This document shows positions 13,877 through 32,184 of a DNA stretch of 41,702 bases, piece after piece (position 1 is the first letter of the stretch; the number at the start of each line of letters is the position of its first letter). The translations under genes and the position numbers were made by a program. The DNA is from an uncultured bacterium (lineage in GTDB: Bacteria; Hydrothermota; Hydrothermia; UBA1063; CAJXJZ01): the NCBI GenBank assembly GCA_913055745.1, contig CAJXJZ010000012.1, forward strand, positions 1-41,702. Direction: 5' to 3'. The notes beneath the pieces are model-generated. The model saw nothing but the letters and a program-made list of their open reading frames with translations. It had not been told where the DNA came from and did no database searches.

Positions 13877-15216
13877 ATTATATACCTTGAAAGGTCCTCG
13901 TTTTCAATGAATTTTGCGAGTTTTGATTCTACGGTACGTGCATTTATAGTAATTTCTTTGACATCTATATCAGGCACTTCAAAAAGATGGTCTTCAAGTA
14001 TCTTTGCCATAATAGTCTGTAATCTCCTTGCACCAAGGTCTTCCATTCTTTCGTTGGCAAGATTGGCATAATGAGCTATTTTTTTAATGGCTCCATCAGT
14101 GAATTTTAGCGATACACCTTCAGTGGCAAAAAGTGCCTCATATTGCCTTAGAAGTGAAGTCTCTGTCTCTGTTAGAATCCTATAAAATTCCTTTTCGCCA
14201 AGTGGTGAAAGTTCCACGCGTATAGGAAACCTTCCCTGAAGTTCTGGTATTAAGTCTGATGGGCTATGTTTGGTAAAGGCACCTGCTGCAATGAAAAGTA
14301 TGTGGTCTGTTTTAACAGGGCCATATTTTGTAGCAACTGTTGTACCTTCTACAATTGGTAAGAGGTCTCTCTGTACCCCGCTCCTTGATACATCAGGCCC
14401 AGAGGTAGTATCAGAGCCAACTATTTTATCAAATTCATCAATAAATACTATGCCGCTTTCCTCAACCCGTTCCTTTGCCTCTTCTCTTAGTTTTGTCTGG
14501 TCAATGTATTTTTCAGATGCCTTTTCAAGTAGGAGTTTTCGTGCATCGCCGACCTTCATTTTCTTTCGCTTTTTTTTCTTTGGAAAGAGGTTTTTAATAG
14601 GTTCTGGTAGATCAAGGTCTCCTAAGTCCATCCCGGATTCAAATCCAGCACCTATTACGCCAAACATAGGTGGTGTGGTGGTCTCTTCAATCTCTACCTC
14701 AACTTCTCTATCATCAAACTTCCCTTCAAAAAGCATTTCTCGAAGTTTTATAAAAGTTTCGTTCTCTTCATCTTCTATAACCTGTGGATAGAGTTCTTTT
14801 AATAAAATGCGAGAGACATCCTGTTCTGCTTTCTTTCGTACCTTTTGCATCATTTCCATTTTAACCAGGGATATTCCAGATTCCATAAGGTCTCGTATCA
14901 TTGATTCCACATTCCTGCCTACATACCCAACCTCTGTGTATTTTGTTGCCTCAACCTTTACAAACGGTGCTTTTATGAGTTCTGCGAGCCTTCTTGCTAT
15001 CTCTGTTTTTCCAACACCTGTTGGTCCTATCATTATAATGTTGTTTGGTGATATTTCCTTTTTAAAATCGTTTGGTACACGTAACCTTCGCCATCTGTTT
15101 CTTATGGCAATGGCAACCATCTTCTTTGCATCATCTTGTCCTATTATAAACCTTGATAACTCTTTAACTATTTTTCTTGGTGTTAGAGCACCATAATCTT
15201 TTTCCTGTATTGCCAT
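13873..15216 (-). CDS. hslU: ATP-dependent protease ATPase subunit HslU (ClpY)
   Basis: A 447-residue AAA+ unfoldase. The N-terminal 'LTPRKIVKELSRFIIGQ' is diagnostic, Walker A is 'GPTGVGKT' at 64-71, the 'EVGYVGRNVES' pore loop follows, an I-domain with acidic and Lys-rich stretches spans about 110-240, and Walker B is 'FIDEFDK'. The C-terminus 'EDLSRYII' is the tail that docks into HslV, so a functional partner protease is expected. hslV is normally adjacent but is absent here; the upstream gene is the M14 peptidase, whose 3' end overlaps this start by 34 bp. AAGGGG 6 nt before the ATG at 15216 supports the start. Confidence 0.96.
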   Translation of the reverse strand: MAIQEKDYGALTPRKIVKELSRFIIGQDDAKKMVAIAIRNRWRRLRVPNDFKKEISPNNIIMIGPTGVGKTEIARRLAELIKAPFVKVEATKYTEVGYVGRNVESMIRDLMESGISLVKMEMMQKVRKKAEQDVSRILLKELYPQVIEDEENETFIKLREMLFEGKFDDREVEVEIEETTTPPMFGVIGAGFESGMDLGDLDLPEPIKNLFPKKKKRKKMKVGDARKLLLEKASEKYIDQTKLREEAKERVEESGIVFIDEFDKIVGSDTTSGPDVSRSGVQRDLLPIVEGTTVATKYGPVKTDHILFIAAGAFTKHSPSDLIPELQGRFPIRVELSPLGEKEFYRILTETETSLLRQYEALFATEGVSLKFTDGAIKKIAHYANLANERMEDLGARRLQTIMAKILEDHLFEVPDIDVKEITINARTVESKLAKFIENEDLSRYII

Positions 15217-18173
15217 GCTTTACCCCTTATTTCCATAAAGTATATGCCCTTCTTAAATCTTTTATTGATAGATATACGGTTTTGCCCTTTTCTTATAGTA
15301 AATCTTTTAGATTGTACCATCCTTCCTGTAATATCAAAGAACCGAACATTAAGATGGCCGTTGTAATTAGCATTAATAGTGAATTTTATACCATCTTGCC
15401 GCATATGAATTGTTGGAATATAAACACTATTTTTTAGAGGCGTCCTTTTCTCCTGTATCTTAGATACAAAAGGTGTATCTGTGGTGAATTTTATAAAACT
15501 CCCTGGAATGAGGGATGCCGCTGTATTATCATAGTTGCCGTTGTAAAGATACTGAAGACCTGTGGTCTCATCTGGTGATTCTATGCCAACCGTCTGGTCT
15601 TGTGTATTGTCAAGTCTTTGATATGCAAATATTATCTCACCATCACCTGTTATAGTGGGGTAATATGTAGGGTCTCTCAATATAACCTCAAATGTTTCAA
15701 TCTCACTATTATTGCCATATCGTGGAACGCCTGCCCACTCTACAATGAAGATATGACCTGTGTCATCGTAATGATAATAAATATTGCCCCCTTGTGATGG
15801 GTCAAGGTCATCCCATGATGGAGCAATAACGCCATAAGGTGCACCACTTTGTGGTATTGTGGAATTTGAATATACAGCATCGCTTTGGCTTATAAAGGAG
15901 AGCCATCCATTGGAGGAGATATAAACTGAATCGTAATTTATTCCATAGTATTTAAATGTAAACGGTAAACTTAAAGGAGTGACAGACTCATCTCCGACAT
16001 TTGGCACGGGAGTGCCTATACCCTGTATATCAATAAACTCTATATGCTCCCACTCTGTGTACATAGTATCTAATCTGTCATAGGCATAATATCCATATGC
16101 ATCAGGTCCCTCTACCCATGTAGAATCTTTCCAACCAACGGTGTATGTGAGTGTATCCTGTTTTGTAATTGTATCGTATGTGCATGTTGCAACCAATTGA
16201 ACATATGCCCCAAGCGGTGTGCCATGTGATACAGAAAAGCCAAAATCAATAAATGTGTCTTTACCTGCTTGTATGCTATCTATGCTCATTGTATCGGTAT
16301 TTACGGTGATATATGATGAGAGTGAACTAAGCCAGACCTTTACATCATAACCGGTTTCAGTGCCAAAGTTTCCATAACTTAGCCTTATAAACCCCATATC
16401 AGAAGGGTCAAGATGGCCATTTATATTACCAGATGTATCAATGATGCTATCTGTTTTTAATGAGATAACAGGCCTATTCTCCAAGAGATTCTCCACTGCA
16501 TCAAGGTCAAATCCGGCTATGCTACCAGATGATGGATTACCACCTGCGTCCTGTATTTTTAGGTATCTTGCTGTTGTAAGTCCTGAGCCCTGTATTGAGA
16601 AGGTTGTTGTGCCATATCCATCTCCTATGTATGTCCAGGGCCCTCTATAATTTGTTGAGGCATAAACCTTAAAATGCTCATTCTGATACCCATCATCCCC
16701 TTCGTACACAGTAAAAGACCCAGAAATGGGCGTTCTCTCTCCCATATCCACCACTACCCAGCCTGTATCGTTAAGGGATACATAATCCCCATCTGGTGCG
16801 CCCAATATTGAAGGAATATGAGGTTTTATAACAGGTGTACTCTCTCTGTCAATGGCTGCTGCTACTGGTTTATAGATATAATATCCATTTGCTCTTGTAA
16901 GATAGATGTCAAGTTTGACAGAGGAGTCTGGTGGCACGGTTATATTGTTTATGGTTTTGGTTGCATATCCATTTGCCCATACCTTAATACTGTATGTGCC
17001 AGGGAGGGTTGGGAGGAAGTAATCCCCTGTTTCCCTGTCCGTATATACGGGCCAATCCCTTTCTATGCCGTATATAACAGCCTCACGAATAGTATCCCCA
17101 CTTGTGCTATCTATCACATAACCGTGTATACCAACACCTGCCTTTTGAATAAATGCAATGATTGCACCCTTGTTTATCTTCCATGTAGTATCAAGTTCTG
17201 TATCAGGGGGGACAAACTCATGACATAGTTCAATAGTAACATCGTTTATGCCATCAATACCCATGGAATAATCATTTAAATCACCATAGGTTTGATACCA
17301 GTCGTATCCCTCAGTTACCCAGTATCCATCACCCTCTGCTGCTGTTGAGTCTCCATACATGTTTGCATAGGTTACAACAAGCTGGCTGTCTGGTATGTGG
17401 TCAGGGGAGTAGTTCCATATATAGTTTACTGCAGGGTGATATGTATGGTATGTAAGACCCATGGTGAAGTTCTCTCTCTGGCTCCATCTGTACATGGCAT
17501 CTGTTTCTGGCTGTCCATAGGGTATTGTATCTCCACCGCCCCCAGTCCACATATATCCATAGTTTCTATTTAAATCTTTGCCATTGGCATTGTATCTTGT
17601 TTGTGCCTCGTGTCCATCAGGGTTGAGCATAGGCAAGATCCATATCTCTCTATTGTTTACAAGGTTTGTTATATATGTATCGTTTCCGTATTTTTCCGTA
17701 AGGTATGCGAGAAGGTAAAGGGGTATTTCTGCGCTGGGCCATTCGTTTCCATGATGGCATCCCACAATACGCACCTCTGCCTCATCCTCTTTTATATTGG
17801 GGTTATCAGAGACCTTTGCAGCGAGGATTAGTCTTCCCTGTACAGAATACCCAATGGTATCAAGTTTTACAATATCAGGGTGTGCCATGGCAATGGAATC
17901 CATTATGGATATGATCTCGCTGTAAGTATGGTAATGCATGGTGAGTGATGTATCAACCTTTGTTGTGGGTTTTGTTCTCGCTTTGGTGTATGCCCTTATA
18001 TCAGGTATTAGCACCTTTACATCAAATCCCATGGACCTGAGTGTTTTAAGGTCTTTGTCCTTTATATATATTGTCGCTTTGTTTTGTGATACATCAACAA
18101 TAGAAAATTTATATAGGGTTTTCAAGTCTTTTTTGCTGGATATAGGCACCTTAACCAGCATATCTGCCCTCAA
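15183..18173 (-). CDS. Secreted M14 zinc carboxypeptidase with C-terminal sorting domain
   Basis: A 996-residue multidomain protein. Residues about 75-345 are an M14 (carboxypeptidase T-like) domain: zinc ligands His141 and Glu144 in 'HHGNEWPS', the Asn-Arg of 'DLNRNYGY', His243 in 'LTYHTYHP' and catalytic Glu315 in 'VTIELCHEF'. A carboxypeptidase regulatory-like beta-sandwich follows (about 350-430), then discoidin-like and beta-rich segments with 'YYGINYDSVYISSNGWLSF'. The last 75 residues resemble the Por/T9SS or FlgD-like sorting module ('VRFFDITGRMV ... GIYFMEI'). TTG at 18173 is the first canonical start but cuts off the signal peptide, which is encoded immediately upstream (18174-18215). 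It probably digests extracellular peptides. Confidence 0.9.
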   Translation of the reverse strand: MRADMLVKVPISSKKDLKTLYKFSIVDVSQNKATIYIKDKDLKTLRSMGFDVKVLIPDIRAYTKARTKPTTKVDTSLTMHYHTYSEIISIMDSIAMAHPDIVKLDTIGYSVQGRLILAAKVSDNPNIKEDEAEVRIVGCHHGNEWPSAEIPLYLLAYLTEKYGNDTYITNLVNNREIWILPMLNPDGHEAQTRYNANGKDLNRNYGYMWTGGGGDTIPYGQPETDAMYRWSQRENFTMGLTYHTYHPAVNYIWNYSPDHIPDSQLVVTYANMYGDSTAAEGDGYWVTEGYDWYQTYGDLNDYSMGIDGINDVTIELCHEFVPPDTELDTTWKINKGAIIAFIQKAGVGIHGYVIDSTSGDTIREAVIYGIERDWPVYTDRETGDYFLPTLPGTYSIKVWANGYATKTINNITVPPDSSVKLDIYLTRANGYYIYKPVAAAIDRESTPVIKPHIPSILGAPDGDYVSLNDTGWVVVDMGERTPISGSFTVYEGDDGYQNEHFKVYASTNYRGPWTYIGDGYGTTTFSIQGSGLTTARYLKIQDAGGNPSSGSIAGFDLDAVENLLENRPVISLKTDSIIDTSGNINGHLDPSDMGFIRLSYGNFGTETGYDVKVWLSSLSSYITVNTDTMSIDSIQAGKDTFIDFGFSVSHGTPLGAYVQLVATCTYDTITKQDTLTYTVGWKDSTWVEGPDAYGYYAYDRLDTMYTEWEHIEFIDIQGIGTPVPNVGDESVTPLSLPFTFKYYGINYDSVYISSNGWLSFISQSDAVYSNSTIPQSGAPYGVIAPSWDDLDPSQGGNIYYHYDDTGHIFIVEWAGVPRYGNNSEIETFEVILRDPTYYPTITGDGEIIFAYQRLDNTQDQTVGIESPDETTGLQYLYNGNYDNTAASLIPGSFIKFTTDTPFVSKIQEKRTPLKNSVYIPTIHMRQDGIKFTINANYNGHLNVRFFDITGRMVQSKRFTIRKGQNRISINKRFKKGIYFMEIRGKAWQYRKKIMVL

Positions 18174-24512: not shown

Positions 24513-24541
24513 TTGACTTTTCCAAGTATTTATAATAAAAT
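24513..24541 (+). promoter_or_regulatory. Promoter of the 24566-28381 operon
   Basis: TTGACT (24513-24518), 17-bp spacer, TAAAAT (24536-24541). A start near 24548 gives a leader with CGGAGGG (24554-24560) before the ATG at 24566. A second TATAAT-like box (24531-24536) overlaps it. Confidence 0.65.
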
Positions 24542-24565: not shown

Positions 24566-25273
24566 ATGTTATATATGTATCTTTTAATGCTATTTTTTGG
24601 AAGCAGTGCAAAGCCTGTTGTGAAAAATATCGGAGAAGGCAGGGATTTTGGTAATATAAAAGGCATTTGCCAATGGGGCACACGTTCGCACTCGCAAATG
24701 ATTGTAAAACTTATATCATTTGATAAATACAAGGTTGCATTGCTTAAAGAGTGGATATTTGGGGGAAAGGAAAAATTGGATACAACCACATATAATTTTA
24801 AGATTGATGGAAAAAGTATAAAAATAGAAGGGATGCCATATTTTACAGGTATGTACACCTATTCTCCAACTTTTATCGCTATTTTTGAAAAAAAGGTGCA
24901 CTGGCGATATATCTCATCAGATTCTTGCAAAAAAAGTACATATTTTAAATATCCTGGAAAAGGATTGTTCTTTTTTGATGTTAGATCAAAGGGGCATATA
25001 AAGCCGTGCAATATAATGAGTATTAACACAGAAGTGGCTGAATTCTCGCCCTTCTATGAAACAAAAAACAATCATCTATTCTTCCTACGGGTAGGAGACA
25101 GTCTTCAGGATAGCATCAAGGTTGTCATTGCCAGAGAGGGGAAATTACAAAAGAGCCAGTATATTAGAGAGGGAGAGTTGTACTTAGGTATTATGGATAA
25201 CGCTCACTATGATGTACAGATAGGGCAACTTGATATTAACTTACCAGAAGCATTGAGGTTGTTGGGACAATGA
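24566..25273 (+). CDS. Secreted protein of unknown function heading a five-gene operon
   Basis: A 235-residue protein with an N-terminal signal peptide ('MLYMYLLMLFFGSSAKP', cleavage likely after SSA). The mature part is basic and beta-rich with several aromatic strands and four scattered cysteines; 'FSPFYETKNNHLFFLRVGD' resembles a carbohydrate-binding or Ig-type strand pair, but no family is recognised. The last 35 residues ('YLGIMDNAHYDVQIGQ') may form a final strand. It is well expressed by appearance: promoter, GGAGGG ribosome site. It overlaps the next gene by ATGA. Confidence 0.75.
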   Translation: MLYMYLLMLFFGSSAKPVVKNIGEGRDFGNIKGICQWGTRSHSQMIVKLISFDKYKVALLKEWIFGGKEKLDTTTYNFKIDGKSIKIEGMPYFTGMYTYSPTFIAIFEKKVHWRYISSDSCKKSTYFKYPGKGLFFFDVRSKGHIKPCNIMSINTEVAEFSPFYETKNNHLFFLRVGDSLQDSIKVVIAREGKLQKSQYIREGELYLGIMDNAHYDVQIGQLDINLPEALRLLGQ

Positions 25274-25542
25274 AACACATAGAGGTAATTAAGTTTATAA
25301 AAGAGATATTAAAACAAAGGCATGAGAACGCCATATTGGATGCGATAGTCTCTTTTGCTCTGTATTTCTTTGTTATAATTGCCGTTGTCGTTGGTGTCAT
25401 TTTTCTTATAAAGGTGTTGCCCTGGATTGTAAAACAGACAGGAGGACCTGTATACAGTTTATTTAGTGCGAAGAAAGGAAAAGAAGAGCGTAAAGAGGTT
25501 TACCATCACATTGACAGACCTTTGAAAAAACTTGAATTTTGA
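25270..25542 (+). CDS. Small single-pass membrane protein
   Basis: A 90-residue protein with a charged amphipathic N-terminus (about 1-22), one strong hydrophobic segment (about 25-50, 'YFFVIIAVVVGVIFLIKVL') and a basic cytoplasmic-type tail containing His-His near residues 79-80. No family is recognised. ATGA overlap with the upstream secreted protein and a 4-bp overlap with the following radical SAM gene show tight coupling. It could anchor or tether a partner, but no direct evidence exists. Confidence 0.75.
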   Translation: MKHIEVIKFIKEILKQRHENAILDAIVSFALYFFVIIAVVVGVIFLIKVLPWIVKQTGGPVYSLFSAKKGKEERKEVYHHIDRPLKKLEF

Positions 25543-26468
25543 GTAATTTTCCATATAGAAAAGCATCCGCCTTTTTTAAGGACAAGTTTAATGCGAGGGT
25601 TTACAGGGTTGCTGTAGATGCAGGATTCACCTGTCCTAACAGGGATGGTACCCTCGCAAGGGGAGGGTGTATTTTCTGCGATGAGGAAGGCTCTCGTGCA
25701 TCTTATGTAAATCCGAAGGCGCCTATAAAGGAACAGGTTTTAGATGGCATAGGAAAATTAAAATCTTCTTACGGTGCAGAAAAGTTTATCGTTTATTTCC
25801 AATCTTATAGTAACACCTATGCCCCAATAGAAAAACTTAGATTGCTCTATTTTGAGGCGCTTTCATCACATCCTGATGTAATAGGTATTTCTATTTCAAC
25901 AAGGCCTGATTTACTTCCAGAAAGCGTTTTAGACCTCCTTGAAGAGATTTCAAAAAAATACTTTGTAATGCTGGAGATAGGCGTTCAAACCTTTAATTAT
26001 AAGAGCCTTATTAAAGCAAGGAGGTTTCATACAGTATCTGATTCAATTGATGCTATCTTGCGTGCAAAGAAAAGAGGGTTGCATGTTGTAGCACACATGA
26101 TACTGGGCCTTTTTGACGAGATAAACATTGAGACCATTGAAGGGGGGAGAATACTCTCTGTACTTGGAGTAGATGGAGTGAAAATTCACCATCTCTATGT
26201 TATAAAGGATACCCCATTGGAAGGTCTTTATAGAAGAAATAGGGTAAAGGTTTATGAAAACCCTATGGATTTTGCAAACCTTGTTGTGCGTTTCCTTGAG
26301 AATATAAGTCCTTCTATGGTGATACACAGGGTGCAGGGTTTCGCACCTAAAAGGCGACTTGTTGCACCTTTGTGGACATCTAATAAGCACATAATATCAA
26401 ACTTAGTTGAAAAAATTATGAGGGAAAAAGGGACATATCAGGGTAAATTTTATAGGTACAATGACTAA
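25539..26468 (+). CDS. Radical SAM protein, YhcC/YtqA (TIGR01212) type
   Basis: A 309-residue radical SAM enzyme. The cluster-binding cysteines are Cys32, Cys44 and Cys47 in 'CPNRDGTLARGGCIFC', a C-x11-C-x2-C spacing that is characteristic of the YhcC/YtqA family rather than the common CxxxCxxC. The family's 'ISTRPDLLP', 'EIGVQTFN' and 'AHMILGLF' segments follow. Its reaction is not established; some members are described as tRNA-modifying or as partners of Fe-S proteins, which remains uncertain. The start is TTG at 25539, overlapping the previous stop as TTGA, and its end overlaps the next radical SAM gene by 8 bp. Confidence 0.9.
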   Translation: MSNFPYRKASAFFKDKFNARVYRVAVDAGFTCPNRDGTLARGGCIFCDEEGSRASYVNPKAPIKEQVLDGIGKLKSSYGAEKFIVYFQSYSNTYAPIEKLRLLYFEALSSHPDVIGISISTRPDLLPESVLDLLEEISKKYFVMLEIGVQTFNYKSLIKARRFHTVSDSIDAILRAKKRGLHVVAHMILGLFDEINIETIEGGRILSVLGVDGVKIHHLYVIKDTPLEGLYRRNRVKVYENPMDFANLVVRFLENISPSMVIHRVQGFAPKRRLVAPLWTSNKHIISNLVEKIMREKGTYQGKFYRYND

Positions 26469-27768
26469 GGTTCTTGTCGTTAATCCGCCTGTATATGATT
26501 TTTCTTTGTATGATTTTTGGCTTAAACCCTATGGGCCACTCAGGATATATGCCTTTTTAAAGAGATATAATAATTTGAATGTTAGGTTCTTTGATTTTCT
26601 TGATAGATACAGCCCTTATGTAAATGCCTATGGCTATAAATACAAAGATGCCTACGGGAAGGGTAAGTTTTTGGGTGTGCAGATAGAAAAGCCTTCTGTT
26701 TTGGAGTTTGTAAAGAGAAAATACAAGAGATTTGGTATACCACCTGTTTATTTTGAAGATGAACTTCGGTCTTTTAAGCCCGATTTTGTACTTGTATATA
26801 CGGGTATGACTTATTGGTACCCTGGGGTAATAGAGGTGATGAACAGTGCAAGGAGTATTCTCGGGAAAAAAGTCCATATTGTAACAGGAGGGATCTTAAG
26901 TACATTATGTCCAAACTTTTTAAAAGAAAAGGGCGTAGATACAGTGATAGAGGGTGAAGCCTTTGATAAACTTGCAAGTATTTTTGATTTGCCATCTAAG
27001 AAAGAAGAAGACCATATACTACCTTGTTGGAGTGCCTACAAGGAATTACCCTATGTTGTCATAAGACTTACAGAAGGCTGTCCTTTTAGATGTCCCTATT
27101 GTGCATCTTATATCTTAAAGCCAAGATTTAGAGTACTTGATATAGATAGAACATTTGAACATGTAAAAAAAATGGCGTCAAAAGGCATTAGGGATTTTGT
27201 CTTTTATGATGATGCCTTGCTTGTAAGGAAAAAAGATGCGTTATTTCCGTTTTTGGAAAAGGTGATTAAAGAGCGTCTTTCTTTGAGGTTTCATACGCCT
27301 AATGCACTTCATGCCAGATTTATAGATGAGGAGACGGCATATATTATGAAAAAAGCAGGATTTTCAACAATCTATCTTGGTTTTGAGTTTCAGGATGAAA
27401 GGTTGCAAAAAAAGATGGGAGGTAAGGTATATACCTATGAGTTTGATAGGGCTGTTAATAATCTTCTTCAAGCAGGTTTTAAAAGAGAGAGTATAACAGG
27501 CTACGTTTTTCTGGGTATATTGGGGCAATCCCCGGATGAGGTAGAGCGGGCATTGAGACATGTTAACTTTACTGGTATAAGGGTGATGCTAAGTGAGTTT
27601 TCCCCCATTCCTCGTACGCCACTTGGCAATAAGGCCATTAAGGAGTATGGTATAGATGACCTTCTTTTAACCAATTGCTCGGTATTTCCACTTATTTCAA
27701 TGGGTGAGGAAGCAGTAAAATATCTAAAAAACCTAAAAAATAGACTAAACGCGAGTATTCCAAAATAA
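26461..27768 (+). CDS. B12-binding-type radical SAM enzyme of unknown substrate
   Basis: A 435-residue protein. Residues about 1-175 form a Rossmann-like cobalamin-binding-type domain ('MTKVLVVNPPVYDF', 'PDFVLVYTG', 'IVTGGIL'), though the classical DxHxxG is absent. The radical SAM core starts at about 198 with the CxxxCxxC motif Cys207, Cys211 and Cys214 in 'TEGCPFRCPYCAS', then 'FYDDALLV' and 'YLGFEFQDE'. Related enzymes methylate or rearrange unactivated carbons, including in lipid and antibiotic pathways. The substrate is unknown. It is tightly coupled to the YhcC-type radical SAM gene (8-bp overlap). Confidence 0.9.
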   Translation: MTKVLVVNPPVYDFSLYDFWLKPYGPLRIYAFLKRYNNLNVRFFDFLDRYSPYVNAYGYKYKDAYGKGKFLGVQIEKPSVLEFVKRKYKRFGIPPVYFEDELRSFKPDFVLVYTGMTYWYPGVIEVMNSARSILGKKVHIVTGGILSTLCPNFLKEKGVDTVIEGEAFDKLASIFDLPSKKEEDHILPCWSAYKELPYVVIRLTEGCPFRCPYCASYILKPRFRVLDIDRTFEHVKKMASKGIRDFVFYDDALLVRKKDALFPFLEKVIKERLSLRFHTPNALHARFIDEETAYIMKKAGFSTIYLGFEFQDERLQKKMGGKVYTYEFDRAVNNLLQAGFKRESITGYVFLGILGQSPDEVERALRHVNFTGIRVMLSEFSPIPRTPLGNKAIKEYGIDDLLLTNCSVFPLISMGEEAVKYLKNLKNRLNASIPK

Positions 27769-27775
27769 TAGAGAC

Positions 27776-28381
27776 ATGCCAAGTAGTTATCATGAGCAGA
27801 TTCCAATCATTATTGATATACTACTCAGGATAAAACCAGCCTCCTTATTGGATGTTGGTGTGGGTTTCGGAAAATACGGATTTCTTGCAAGAGAATATCT
27901 TGAGATATGGGATAATGATAAGGGATATGGTAGTTTTAAGGTTAGAATAGATGGTGTAGAACCTTTTGCAAGGTATATTACTCCATGTCATGAGTATATT
28001 TACAACAATATCTATAATATGGATATCTTAGAGTTTGTTAAAGAGCAAAAGATGGGATATGACCTTGTACTTCTTATTGATGTTTTGGAGCATATAGATA
28101 AGGATGAGGGGAAAAAGCTATTACAAATACTTTTGAGAAAAAACAGAAATATCCTCATTTCAACCCCAAAGGTATTTAATAAGCAAGGCGAAGTTTTTGG
28201 CAATAAATATGAAGTCCACAGGTCTTTTTGGAAGAAAAAGGAACTTTTGAGTTTTAAGAGCGGAATAGTAATACCATTTAAATGGTCTCATATTGTCTTT
28301 CTTGGCAGGGATTATAAAAAACTTAAAAGGTATAGATTAAAAAGACATCTTATCAAATTTTTCCCTGGACTCATACAATAA
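27776..28381 (+). CDS. Class I SAM-dependent methyltransferase
   Basis: A 201-residue methyltransferase. Motif I is 'LLDVGVGFGKYG' (about 20-31), a second acidic loop 'IDGVEPF', and motif IV region 'DLVLLIDVLEHI'. The 'DVLEHID' is typical of small-molecule or lipid methyltransferases of the class I fold, and the 'STPKV' strand follows. Substrate is unknown. The gene starts 7 nt after the B12-radical SAM stop and closes the operon. A catalytic pair with the radical SAM enzymes on the same substrate is possible but unproven. Confidence 0.85.
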   Translation: MPSSYHEQIPIIIDILLRIKPASLLDVGVGFGKYGFLAREYLEIWDNDKGYGSFKVRIDGVEPFARYITPCHEYIYNNIYNMDILEFVKEQKMGYDLVLLIDVLEHIDKDEGKKLLQILLRKNRNILISTPKVFNKQGEVFGNKYEVHRSFWKKKELLSFKSGIVIPFKWSHIVFLGRDYKKLKRYRLKRHLIKFFPGLIQ

Positions 28382-28498: not shown

Positions 28499-28527
28499 TT
28501 GACTTTCCCTTCTTGTTATGTCATAAT
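28499..28527 (+). promoter_or_regulatory. Promoter for the cyclase gene, leaderless type
   Basis: TTGACT (28499-28504), exactly 17 bp, CATAAT (28522-28527), then 6 nt to the ATG at 28534. Transcription would begin at or next to that ATG, which therefore is the start rather than the TTG at 28513 that opens the frame. Confidence 0.7.
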
Positions 28528-28533
28528 AAGGAT

Positions 28534-31500
28534 ATGAAGTGTCCTGTTTGTGGTAGAGAAAATCCTGATGATGCTGTATTTTGTATATATTGTGGGGCTA
28601 ACCTAAATCCTACCAAGATTCGTAAACCCCTTGGAGAAAGAAAACTTGTAACGGTTTTATTCGCAGATATAGTAGGGTTTACCACTATGAGTGAGGAACT
28701 TGATCCAGAAGAGGTACTAAAAATTATAAATACATTTTTTGAAAAACTTGAAGAACCTGTCCGTAAATATGAGGGAACAATAGATAAATACATGGGTGAT
28801 GCTGTAATGGTAGTTTTTGGAGCACCGTTGGCTCACGAAAATGATTCAGAAAGGGCCGTATATACTGCACTTGAGATGCAAAGAATATCTAAGGAATTCA
28901 GCAAAAAGGTGGATAAAAAAATAAGGTTGTCCATAGGCATTAATACTGGACTTGTTGTAACTGGGGAGGTGGGTGGAAAAGAAAAAGCACTTTACTCTGT
29001 AATAGGCGATACTGTTAATGTGGCTAAACGCGTTCAGGAATTTGCAGGCCCTGGTGATATTATAGTTACAGAGAGCGTTTACCATCTGACAAATTATTTA
29101 TTTGATTATCAAGAAATTGGAACTATCACAGTAAAAGGAAGAAGACAGCCGGTTAAAGTTTTTAAGGTTTTAAACCATAAAACAACCTCAAGCAAGGACG
29201 CTTATATTAAAGGGAAACTCGTTCCATTTATTGGCAGAGAAGAAGAACTTGAGAAGATTATTGAACGAAAAGATTATGCATTTTTAAAGAAAAAGGGTCA
29301 GATCGTTGTCATCTCAGGAGAACCTGGCATTGGAAAATCAAGATTGAAATTTGAAATAAAGAACTCTGTTGATAGAAACAATGTGTTTGTGTTTGAAGGA
29401 AAGAGTGCTCCACATACAAAGCATATCCCCTATTGGCCTATTATAGAGATTCTAAAAACGATCTTTGAGATAGATGAGTTTGACACAAAGGATGTAATAA
29501 AGGAGAAGTTAGAAAAGCAATCTAAAAAATTTAATCTTGACAAGGAAAATTTAGAGGCTATTATGGAAATAATCGGTTTGAGTGAGGTCTCTTCTTATGA
29601 ATTTAAACAACTTAAGTTTGCCGTATGGAATATTATTAAAAAACTGTCTGAAATAAAGCCCATAATGCTCATTTTTGAGGATATACATTGGATGGACATA
29701 TCTTCACTTGAAATTCTTTCCTATCTTGCTGAGGCAATAAAAGACGTTCCTGTTTTAATGGTCCTTATTACAAGAAGTGGATTTTTGCCTGAAATACCTG
29801 TAAGTTATAATGTTCTTAACATTTATCTTAAACCATTTACAATGGAGGAGAGCAAAGATTTTGCAGCAAAACTACTTGGTGTTGTGGTATTACCAGAAGA
29901 ATTTGCTGATGTTGTTCTTAAAAAGGCAGAGGGCAACCCATTTTTTATAGAGCAGATTGTATCACATCTTGTTGATAGAGGTTATATTGAGGTAAAAAAT
30001 AGAAGTCTTATTATTAAGAAAGAAATAAGGGAAGAGGATATTCCTCATAGCATCCACAGCATTATATCTGCAGAGATAGATAGATTGCCCCGCGACCTTA
30101 AAGAGATTGTGAAGAAGGCCTCTGTTATAGGTAGGGAATTTAATGTAGAGATTCTTAAAAAACTTGCGGAGGAAGAAAACATTGAGGACTTACTGCTCAC
30201 CTTGCAGGGTAAGGGAATTATTTATCGTAGTAGAACCCAGGCAAATACTTTTATTTTTAAGCATACCTTTATTCGGGATGTTGCATATAATATGTTATTA
30301 AAATCTGAAAAGAAATATCTTCATACGAGGATTGCTTACATCCTTGAAGAACTGTATCAAGACAGAATAGATGAATATACAGACCTTATCTCATACCATC
30401 TCCTTGAGGGCAAGGCATATCAAAAGGCTCTTAATTACATGCTCAAGTCAGCAGAAAAAGATACAAGATTACATCTTTTCAAGAGTGCTTCACAGAAGTA
30501 TGATACTATTACAAAGGTCGTAGAGGCACTCAATAAGGAAGGTACAAATGTACCTCATAATGTGCTTTTTAGAGTGTATCTCGGTAAAGGTCGTGTATCG
30601 GAATACCTTGGCCTGTGGGATAGGGCACAAAAAGAGTATTCAAAAGCAATGGAATATGCAAAAATGGTTGATAATTCCTACGGTATAATAGATGCAACAT
30701 GTGGAATGGCTCGTGTGCTATACCTCAAAGGTTTCGTAGATCAATCCTTTAAACGTGCAGAGTATGCAAAAAAACAAGCTGAAGAGCTAAACTATAAGGT
30801 GGGTCTTGCAGAATCCCTTTACATTATTGGACAGATTAACCAACTCAAGGGAAATATTAGCGAATCACTTGAACTTATAGAGAAGTCTATGTCTATTTTT
30901 GAGGAAATTGGCTACAAGGGAAGACAGATAGAGTTATCTATAAGGAAATCATATCTTTGCACTATAATTGGGGAGTATAAAGAAAGCCTTAAAACGCTTA
31001 GAGATGCTCTTCAAATTGCAAAAGAGAGGGATGATAAGTACTCCATAGGAAGAATACTTGGGGAAGTGGCAAGAGTTGAGATTTTGAAGAACAGAAGCGA
31101 ATATGCAAGAGGGGTTGCCAAGGGGGGATTGCAGTATCTTTCAGAAATCGGGGACCTTGGAGGGCAGGCAGAACTTTTGAACATTCTTGCTGATTCATAT
31201 CTTAGGGAATCCGAATATGGTGAGGCTCTGTCGGTTCTAAGAAAAGCACTTGATATATACAGGCAGATTGGGGAGAAAAAGGGTCTTGCGCATACCATGT
31301 CAAAAATAGCGGAAATACTCTTTTACTATATAGGGGACAAGGATGAGAGTCTCGCGTATCTAAAGCAGTGCAGTAGAATACAAAAAAGTATGGATGATAG
31401 ACTTGGTCTTGCTTATTCCTACCTCAGATTATCAGACCTTTATGCACATAATGGTCAGTTCAGCATATCAAAGAATTTTGCCACTCGTGCCAAAGATATA

Positions 31501-32184
31501 GGCGAAGAGGGTGGCATAAAATCCATATATATAAGGGGGCTTTCGCGGATTGCGGAGATAGAGTTCTTTGAAGGCAAATATGATGAGGCGCAGAGGCTTT
31601 TAGGTACTGCCTATAATACCATGAAAAAGTCAAAAGTAAATATACAAACTCAAATGGATTTTTATAAAAGAGCAGTACTTATTTATTCAGTTTTAGGAAA
31701 ATATGATAAGGCTGAGAATTACATTCAGGAATTTGAAGGTATTAAGGATATACCCAAGGATATATTTTCAGCCTCCGTGTTAATGGAAAAGGCAAGATAT
31801 TTTGTGTTAAGTGGTAAATATAAAAAGGCGAAAGAACATGTTTTTGACCTATTTTCAAGGGTGTTTAACTTTGAGAACAAGGAACTATATTCCATCTCTA
31901 TGATACTTAAAGGACTTGTAATTGCAGAATTGGAAGATTATACAAAAGGCAAAGAGTCTGTAGAAGAGGGTATCACGCTTGGCTTTTTGTTCCTCTCACC
32001 ATTTGACTTAGCCCTCTCGCAATTTTTATATGGAAAAGTGGCGCTTGCTCATGGAGATAGAGAGGGACTTCTATTGAACTTTACCAATGCCGTGGAGATT
32101 TCTAAAACAAACAATATAGTTCCCATACTTGGCCTTGTCAGAAAATTTAGAGAAAAGCACAAAGGTATTGACATTATGCTTTAA
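28534..32184 (+). CDS. Zinc-ribbon class III nucleotidyl cyclase with ATPase and TPR domains
   Basis: A 1216-residue signalling protein. Residues 1-24 are a zinc ribbon ('CPVC ... CIYC'). About 34-205 is a class III cyclase homology domain with metal-binding Asp45 ('FADIVGFT') and Asp89 ('YMGDAVMVVFG') and the catalytic Asn/Arg in 'VIGDTVNVAKRVQE', so it is probably active in making cAMP or cGMP. About 225-420 is a STAND/AAA-type ATPase with Walker A 'GEPGIGKS' and Walker B 'LIFEDIHWMD'. A winged-helix-like stretch leads to about 600 residues of TPR-like helical repeats. The architecture couples ligand or protein sensing to cyclase output. It heads the operon with the HEAT and HD-GYP genes. 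Confidence 0.9.
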   Translation: MKCPVCGRENPDDAVFCIYCGANLNPTKIRKPLGERKLVTVLFADIVGFTTMSEELDPEEVLKIINTFFEKLEEPVRKYEGTIDKYMGDAVMVVFGAPLAHENDSERAVYTALEMQRISKEFSKKVDKKIRLSIGINTGLVVTGEVGGKEKALYSVIGDTVNVAKRVQEFAGPGDIIVTESVYHLTNYLFDYQEIGTITVKGRRQPVKVFKVLNHKTTSSKDAYIKGKLVPFIGREEELEKIIERKDYAFLKKKGQIVVISGEPGIGKSRLKFEIKNSVDRNNVFVFEGKSAPHTKHIPYWPIIEILKTIFEIDEFDTKDVIKEKLEKQSKKFNLDKENLEAIMEIIGLSEVSSYEFKQLKFAVWNIIKKLSEIKPIMLIFEDIHWMDISSLEILSYLAEAIKDVPVLMVLITRSGFLPEIPVSYNVLNIYLKPFTMEESKDFAAKLLGVVVLPEEFADVVLKKAEGNPFFIEQIVSHLVDRGYIEVKNRSLIIKKEIREEDIPHSIHSIISAEIDRLPRDLKEIVKKASVIGREFNVEILKKLAEEENIEDLLLTLQGKGIIYRSRTQANTFIFKHTFIRDVAYNMLLKSEKKYLHTRIAYILEELYQDRIDEYTDLISYHLLEGKAYQKALNYMLKSAEKDTRLHLFKSASQKYDTITKVVEALNKEGTNVPHNVLFRVYLGKGRVSEYLGLWDRAQKEYSKAMEYAKMVDNSYGIIDATCGMARVLYLKGFVDQSFKRAEYAKKQAEELNYKVGLAESLYIIGQINQLKGNISESLELIEKSMSIFEEIGYKGRQIELSIRKSYLCTIIGEYKESLKTLRDALQIAKERDDKYSIGRILGEVARVEILKNRSEYARGVAKGGLQYLSEIGDLGGQAELLNILADSYLRESEYGEALSVLRKALDIYRQIGEKKGLAHTMSKIAEILFYYIGDKDESLAYLKQCSRIQKSMDDRLGLAYSYLRLSDLYAHNGQFSISKNFATRAKDIGEEGGIKSIYIRGLSRIAEIEFFEGKYDEAQRLLGTAYNTMKKSKVNIQTQMDFYKRAVLIYSVLGKYDKAENYIQEFEGIKDIPKDIFSASVLMEKARYFVLSGKYKKAKEHVFDLFSRVFNFENKELYSISMILKGLVIAELEDYTKGKESVEEGITLGFLFLSPFDLALSQFLYGKVALAHGDREGLLLNFTNAVEISKTNNIVPILGLVRKFREKHKGIDIML

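Follow-up and report, generated by a model that had tools for sequence, protein, structure and literature searches.

A genus-level five-gene operon in candidate division WOR-3 that probably joins independent functions, including a predicted MnmL/YtqA enzyme

Do five genes that follow each other in a single operon of an uncultured bacterium work in one pathway, or do they share only their expression? The window (the whole stretch of DNA analysed, 41,702 nucleotides) makes up contig 12 of a 1.79-Mb genome whose completeness is 95% and whose nearest relatives are MAGs of the candidate division WOR-3. An earlier note on this DNA had read the five genes as a dedicated biosynthetic or modification pathway with an envelope component, and as the best candidate for an undescribed system in the window. 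Our analysis favors another reading, to which we give a probability of about 0.7: the operon is real and has been selected within one WOR-3 genus, and it joins functions that work independently. Most likely it combines an enzyme of the tRNA wobble uridine, an orphan radical enzyme acting independently, a methyltransferase and a pair of envelope proteins specific to the lineage, and the adjacency of the five genes may simply provide shared expression. The features of the locus are the following.

24513..24541, + strand: promoter TTGACT-17-TAAAAT, matching the consensus at 10 of 12 positions; its -10 box and the ribosome-binding stretch are both kept in L032 and L033
24566..25273, + strand: gene 1, encoding a probably exported protein of 235 aa; related genes in G001 and G003 and, by itself, in G007
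25270..25542, + strand: gene 2, encoding a 90-aa protein with a single strongly predicted transmembrane helix; C-tail YHHID[RK]PLKKLEF conserved
25539..26468, + strand: gene 3, predicted MnmL/YtqA tRNA-modification radical SAM enzyme; TTG start; TIGR01212
26461..27768, + strand: gene 4, B12-binding-type radical SAM protein of a multi-phylum family without curated function
27776..28381, + strand: gene 5, putative methyltransferase of the class I SAM type, with motif LLDVGVGFGKYG
28534..32184, + strand: class III cyclase/AAA/TPR protein gene; own promoter-like site at 28499-28527; same neighbor in L032, L033 and L034

Conservation of the block within the genus

The arrangement is as the earlier note had described it: genes 1 to 4 overlap successively by 4, 4 and 8 bp and a 7-nt gap separates gene 4 from gene 5, making the block a candidate single transcription unit. 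That note had proposed a search for the five-gene order in related genomes, and we found it retained in three further species of the genus (G001, G003 and G002, at loci L032, L033 and L034, respectively), the L034 contig beginning inside gene 3. The overlaps are 4/4/8 in L032 and 4/1/8 in L033, and the gap preceding gene 5 is nearly unchanged in both. Between the species of the genus, the proteins of the block are 52-79% identical and synonymous change is saturated. Purifying selection acts on each of the five genes (pS 0.70-1.00 vs. pN 0.15-0.31), and the saturation of synonymous change together with these non-synonymous values indicates that they are real and constrained. At L032, rpmE and the SPOR-domain and HAM1-family genes that flank the block are retained too, so that the conservation of the block there is partly general synteny. 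At L033 the block is whole despite different upstream genes, which hints at some benefit of staying together.

The single good promoter that had been claimed for the operon is present upstream of gene 1. Although sites of this kind often arise by chance in DNA so rich in A and T (24 found vs. 16 expected), the TAAAATA box and the ribosome-binding stretch GGAGGGAGA are invariant across three diverged species. The conserved overlaps and promoter demonstrate a selected unit, though not a shared pathway. Judged from these sequences, the block is a genuine genus-level operon. The cyclase/AAA/TPR gene at 28534-32184 probably lies outside it. The 1216-aa product of this gene has zinc ribbon, class III cyclase, AAA and TPR regions; the gene is conserved beside the operon and is followed by HEAT-repeat and HD-domain genes. 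Elsewhere in the window, positions 15183-18173 encode an M14 zinc carboxypeptidase whose C-terminal sorting domain is of the Por type, which suggests that this WOR-3 lineage has a type IX-like secretion system.

A predicted wobble-uridine enzyme and a putative methyltransferase

Gene 3 matches TIGR01212 with 310.4 bits over model positions 2-301 of 302, 130 bits more than the curated equivalog threshold of the family (180 bits), and it exceeds the cut-offs of PF16199 and PF04055. By these matches it is assigned to the named family MnmL/YtqA, which acts on tRNA wobble uridine 34; hence the earlier view that none of the substrates could be guessed no longer holds for this enzyme. MnmL/YtqA acts in the synthesis of nm5s2U34 or mnm5s2U34 (PMC12548931, PMC12245174), and in Bacillus the step after MnmL is the methylation of nm5s2U by MnmM (PMC9976899). 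Elsewhere in the same genome, MnmG, MnmE and MnmA exceed their cut-offs (814, 355 and 262 bits). As a member of its family, the product of gene 3 would act after MnmE-MnmG, using a SAM-derived radical to convert cmnm5(s2)U34 of tRNA into nm5(s2)U34. Among 60 WOR-3 relatives, MnmL exceeds its cut-off in 26, standing at unrelated loci in the other families. MnmG occurs in these relatives as well, no homolog of the MnmM family was found in the 60 genomes, and no MnmC-type methyltransferase domain was found in the genus. In WOR-3, the last methylation step at the wobble uridine would be either absent or performed by another, unrecognised enzyme.

The description of gene 5 as a methyltransferase agrees with the annotation of its relatives (class I SAM methyltransferases); some of these lie among glycosyltransferases. 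The glycine-rich motif I, DxGxGFG, is invariant in five aligned homologs, but the match to PF13489 is below cut-off (21.3 bits vs. 27). Within the phylum, the only relatives of gene 5 are those of the genus and a clear one in G045; G045 carries gene 5 away from MnmL and has no gene 4 ortholog. Distant relatives occur in plasmids and phages, and two of the best lie inside glycosyltransferase clusters; our search of viral contigs with gene 5 found nothing. The enzyme may methylate a glycan, a small molecule or RNA.

Genes 3 to 5, which are adjacent, could instead form a tRNA-modification module, in which MnmL yields nm5(s2)U34, gene 5 replaces MnmM/MnmC to produce mnm5(s2)U34, and gene 4 adds an extra radical modification of tRNA. 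The lack of MnmM in the relatives and of the MnmC-type domain in the genus speaks for such a module, as do the neighbors of gene 4 elsewhere (MiaB, TilS, MnmG and archease/RtcB, see below) and the presence of Hen1-type RNA methyltransferases among the best matches of gene 5 to solved structures, which are weak. Yet most MnmL-bearing relatives have neither gene 5 nor MnmM, gene 5 is not beside MnmL in G045 and has relatives among glycosyltransferases, and Planctomycetota have gene 4 without MnmL. We thus regard this module as unlikely.

Two lineage-specific proteins

We infer that genes 1 and 2 encode lineage-specific envelope proteins. Gene 1 has no Pfam or NCBIfam family over cut-off. Its earlier description as secreted stands as far as the hydrophobic N-terminus is concerned; this short stretch is the sole basis for export, and from sequence an export signal is only plausible. 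The structure prediction that had been proposed for the 235-aa protein yielded an AF2 model of low confidence (pLDDT 37.6, three input sequences) consisting mostly of strands. An intact homolog of gene 1 occurs without the other block genes in a sister family (G007, L186 3465-4172), where it is flanked on either side by fragmentary reading frames and followed by a transporter gene.

Gene 2 was rightly seen as a one-helix membrane protein: the helix prediction is strong, with a hydropathy over 19 residues of 3.14 at residue 29, and its homologs are confined to the genus. A small protein with a conserved C-tail that precedes two radical SAM genes could recall a RiPP-like system, with gene 2 as the precursor peptide and genes 3 and 4 as its modifying enzymes. 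We rejected gene 2 as a RiPP precursor, since it has a strong transmembrane helix and is found in the genus only, many genomes that lack it having genes 3 and 4, and since no RiPP maturase model exceeded its cut-off. A RiPP-like system is therefore very improbable here.

An orphan radical SAM family across phyla

Genes 3 and 4 both carry PF04055 over its cut-off, bearing out the claim of two radical SAM enzymes. Gene 4 matches PF02310 (37.2 bits, cut-off 32.1) and PF04055 (76.1 bits, cut-off 29.5), and no NCBIfam model over cut-off. The cysteines of its CxxxCxxC motif (C207, C211 and C214) are invariant, and these three radical SAM residues are the only invariant cysteines in 28 members of the family, which conserves the motifs YDFWLKPYG, FYDDA, HTPNA and SPIPxTP. 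Gene 4 would thus encode a radical SAM enzyme of orphan function whose Rossmann domain is of the B12 type. C-methylation or a similar radical reaction is its most likely activity, on a substrate probably unrelated to genes 1, 2 and 5.

Close relatives of gene 4 are present in 34 of the 60 WOR-3 genomes, and further ones in genomes that bear the labels Planctomycetota, Omnitrophota, Acidobacteriota, Sumerlaeota, Thermodesulfobacteriota and others. In five or more other phyla gene 4 stands apart from the other block genes, and genes 1, 2, 3 and 5 adjoin it solely within the genus. Its co-occurrence with MnmL in the 60 relatives gives a Fisher p of 5e-6 by genome and of 0.10 by family, the latter not significant; no MnmL passes its cut-off in 10 of the 34 relatives that carry gene 4, some of these genomes being incomplete. 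Outside the WOR-3 phylum, MnmL was present in all 15 non-Planctomycetota genomes with gene 4 that we tested and lacking in all 20 of the Planctomycetota ones. We rejected a dependence of gene 4 on MnmL, given these 20 genomes.

The survey of gene 4 neighborhoods that the earlier note had suggested revealed neighbors that vary among lineages. In a sister family (f2; L140 3951-7552, L141, L142 and L175), gene 4 follows a TIGR03960 B12-type radical SAM gene with a gap of 2-4 nt. In 24 loci of Planctomycetota (within L042-L098), gene 4 is followed downstream by a MiaB gene in the same orientation, one confirmed by model and the others by clustering; the spacing ranges from 12 bp to ~5 kb, so the linkage survives insertions. 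Archease/RtcB are also among the neighbors in Planctomycetota, TilS lies beside gene 4 on the opposite strand in Omnitrophota, and in another WOR-3 family (G048) MnmG is near it with one gene between. Numerous unrelated genes are found beside gene 4 as well, and by a rough hand count RNA-modification genes near it are not clearly above expectation. The tRNA genes near gene 4 in several phyla (MnmL, MiaB, TilS, MnmG and RtcB) provide a lead to an RNA link. If gene 4 represented a so far undescribed B12-type radical SAM family that modifies tRNA or rRNA in several phyla, this would account for MnmL, MiaB, archease/RtcB, TilS and MnmG as neighbors; we hold this to be a tentative and rather doubtful reading of gene 4.

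One pathway or several?

Outside the genus, genes 1, 3, 4 and 5 are each seen without the others, and the full set is found in the genus only. The earlier note had held that genes scattered in relatives would mark the arrangement as accidental: they are indeed scattered beyond the genus and stay together within it. A dedicated pathway, e.g., one in which genes 4 and 5 decorate a glycan or lipid that genes 1 and 2 handle, would fit the order, overlaps and promoter kept in the genus and the gene 5 relatives in glycosyltransferase clusters. The assignment of gene 3 to MnmL and the scattering of the block genes weigh against it, and we consider such a pathway quite unlikely. What counts against an operon joining independent functions, the reading we prefer, is the persistence of the whole block at L033 beside different upstream genes, together with the co-occurrence of gene 4 with MnmL in the relatives and in the 15 genomes outside the phylum.

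The locus can hardly be retained as the best candidate for an undescribed system, being for the most part an ordinary mixed operon, one more example of MnmL, from WOR-3; the part that still deserves interest is gene 4. It leads to a useful by-product, a sharply delimited, deeply conserved radical SAM family without a curated name, which has cultured hosts (Thermodesulfobacterium).

Comparison with known systems

Gene 3 resembles known MnmL/YtqA in exceeding the TIGR01212 cut-off and in having MnmA, MnmE and MnmG in its genome. It differs in sharing an operon with unrelated genes and in that MnmM, the next enzyme in Bacillus, was not found. MnmM (YtqB, PF06962) is the methyltransferase expected after MnmL, whereas PF06962 has no match in this genome (G000), gene 5 included.

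For the larger part of its length, the AF2 model of gene 4 (pLDDT 92.4) resembles AprD4, MgmA, TsrM and MiaB. With MiaB/MtaB it shares a two-domain fold (TM 0.60-0.65), but it has no invariant cysteines beyond CxxxCxxC. We rejected gene 4 as a methylthiotransferase: the three extra, N-terminal cysteines of the auxiliary cluster are absent, and TIGR00089 gives 20.8 bits vs. a cut-off of 251. With the cobalamin-dependent radical SAM methyltransferases MgmA and TsrM and the diol dehydratase AprD4, gene 4 has in common PF02310 and PF04055, and its model matches 6fd2 (AprD4), 9ccb (MgmA) and 6wte (TsrM) with TM 0.59-0.68 by query length. To our knowledge AprD4, the best fold match, is not an established cobalamin user; hence the B12-type domain alone is no proof that gene 4 uses cobalamin. 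Gene 4 differs from these three enzymes in sequence, being just 12-16% identical to them and having motifs of its own.
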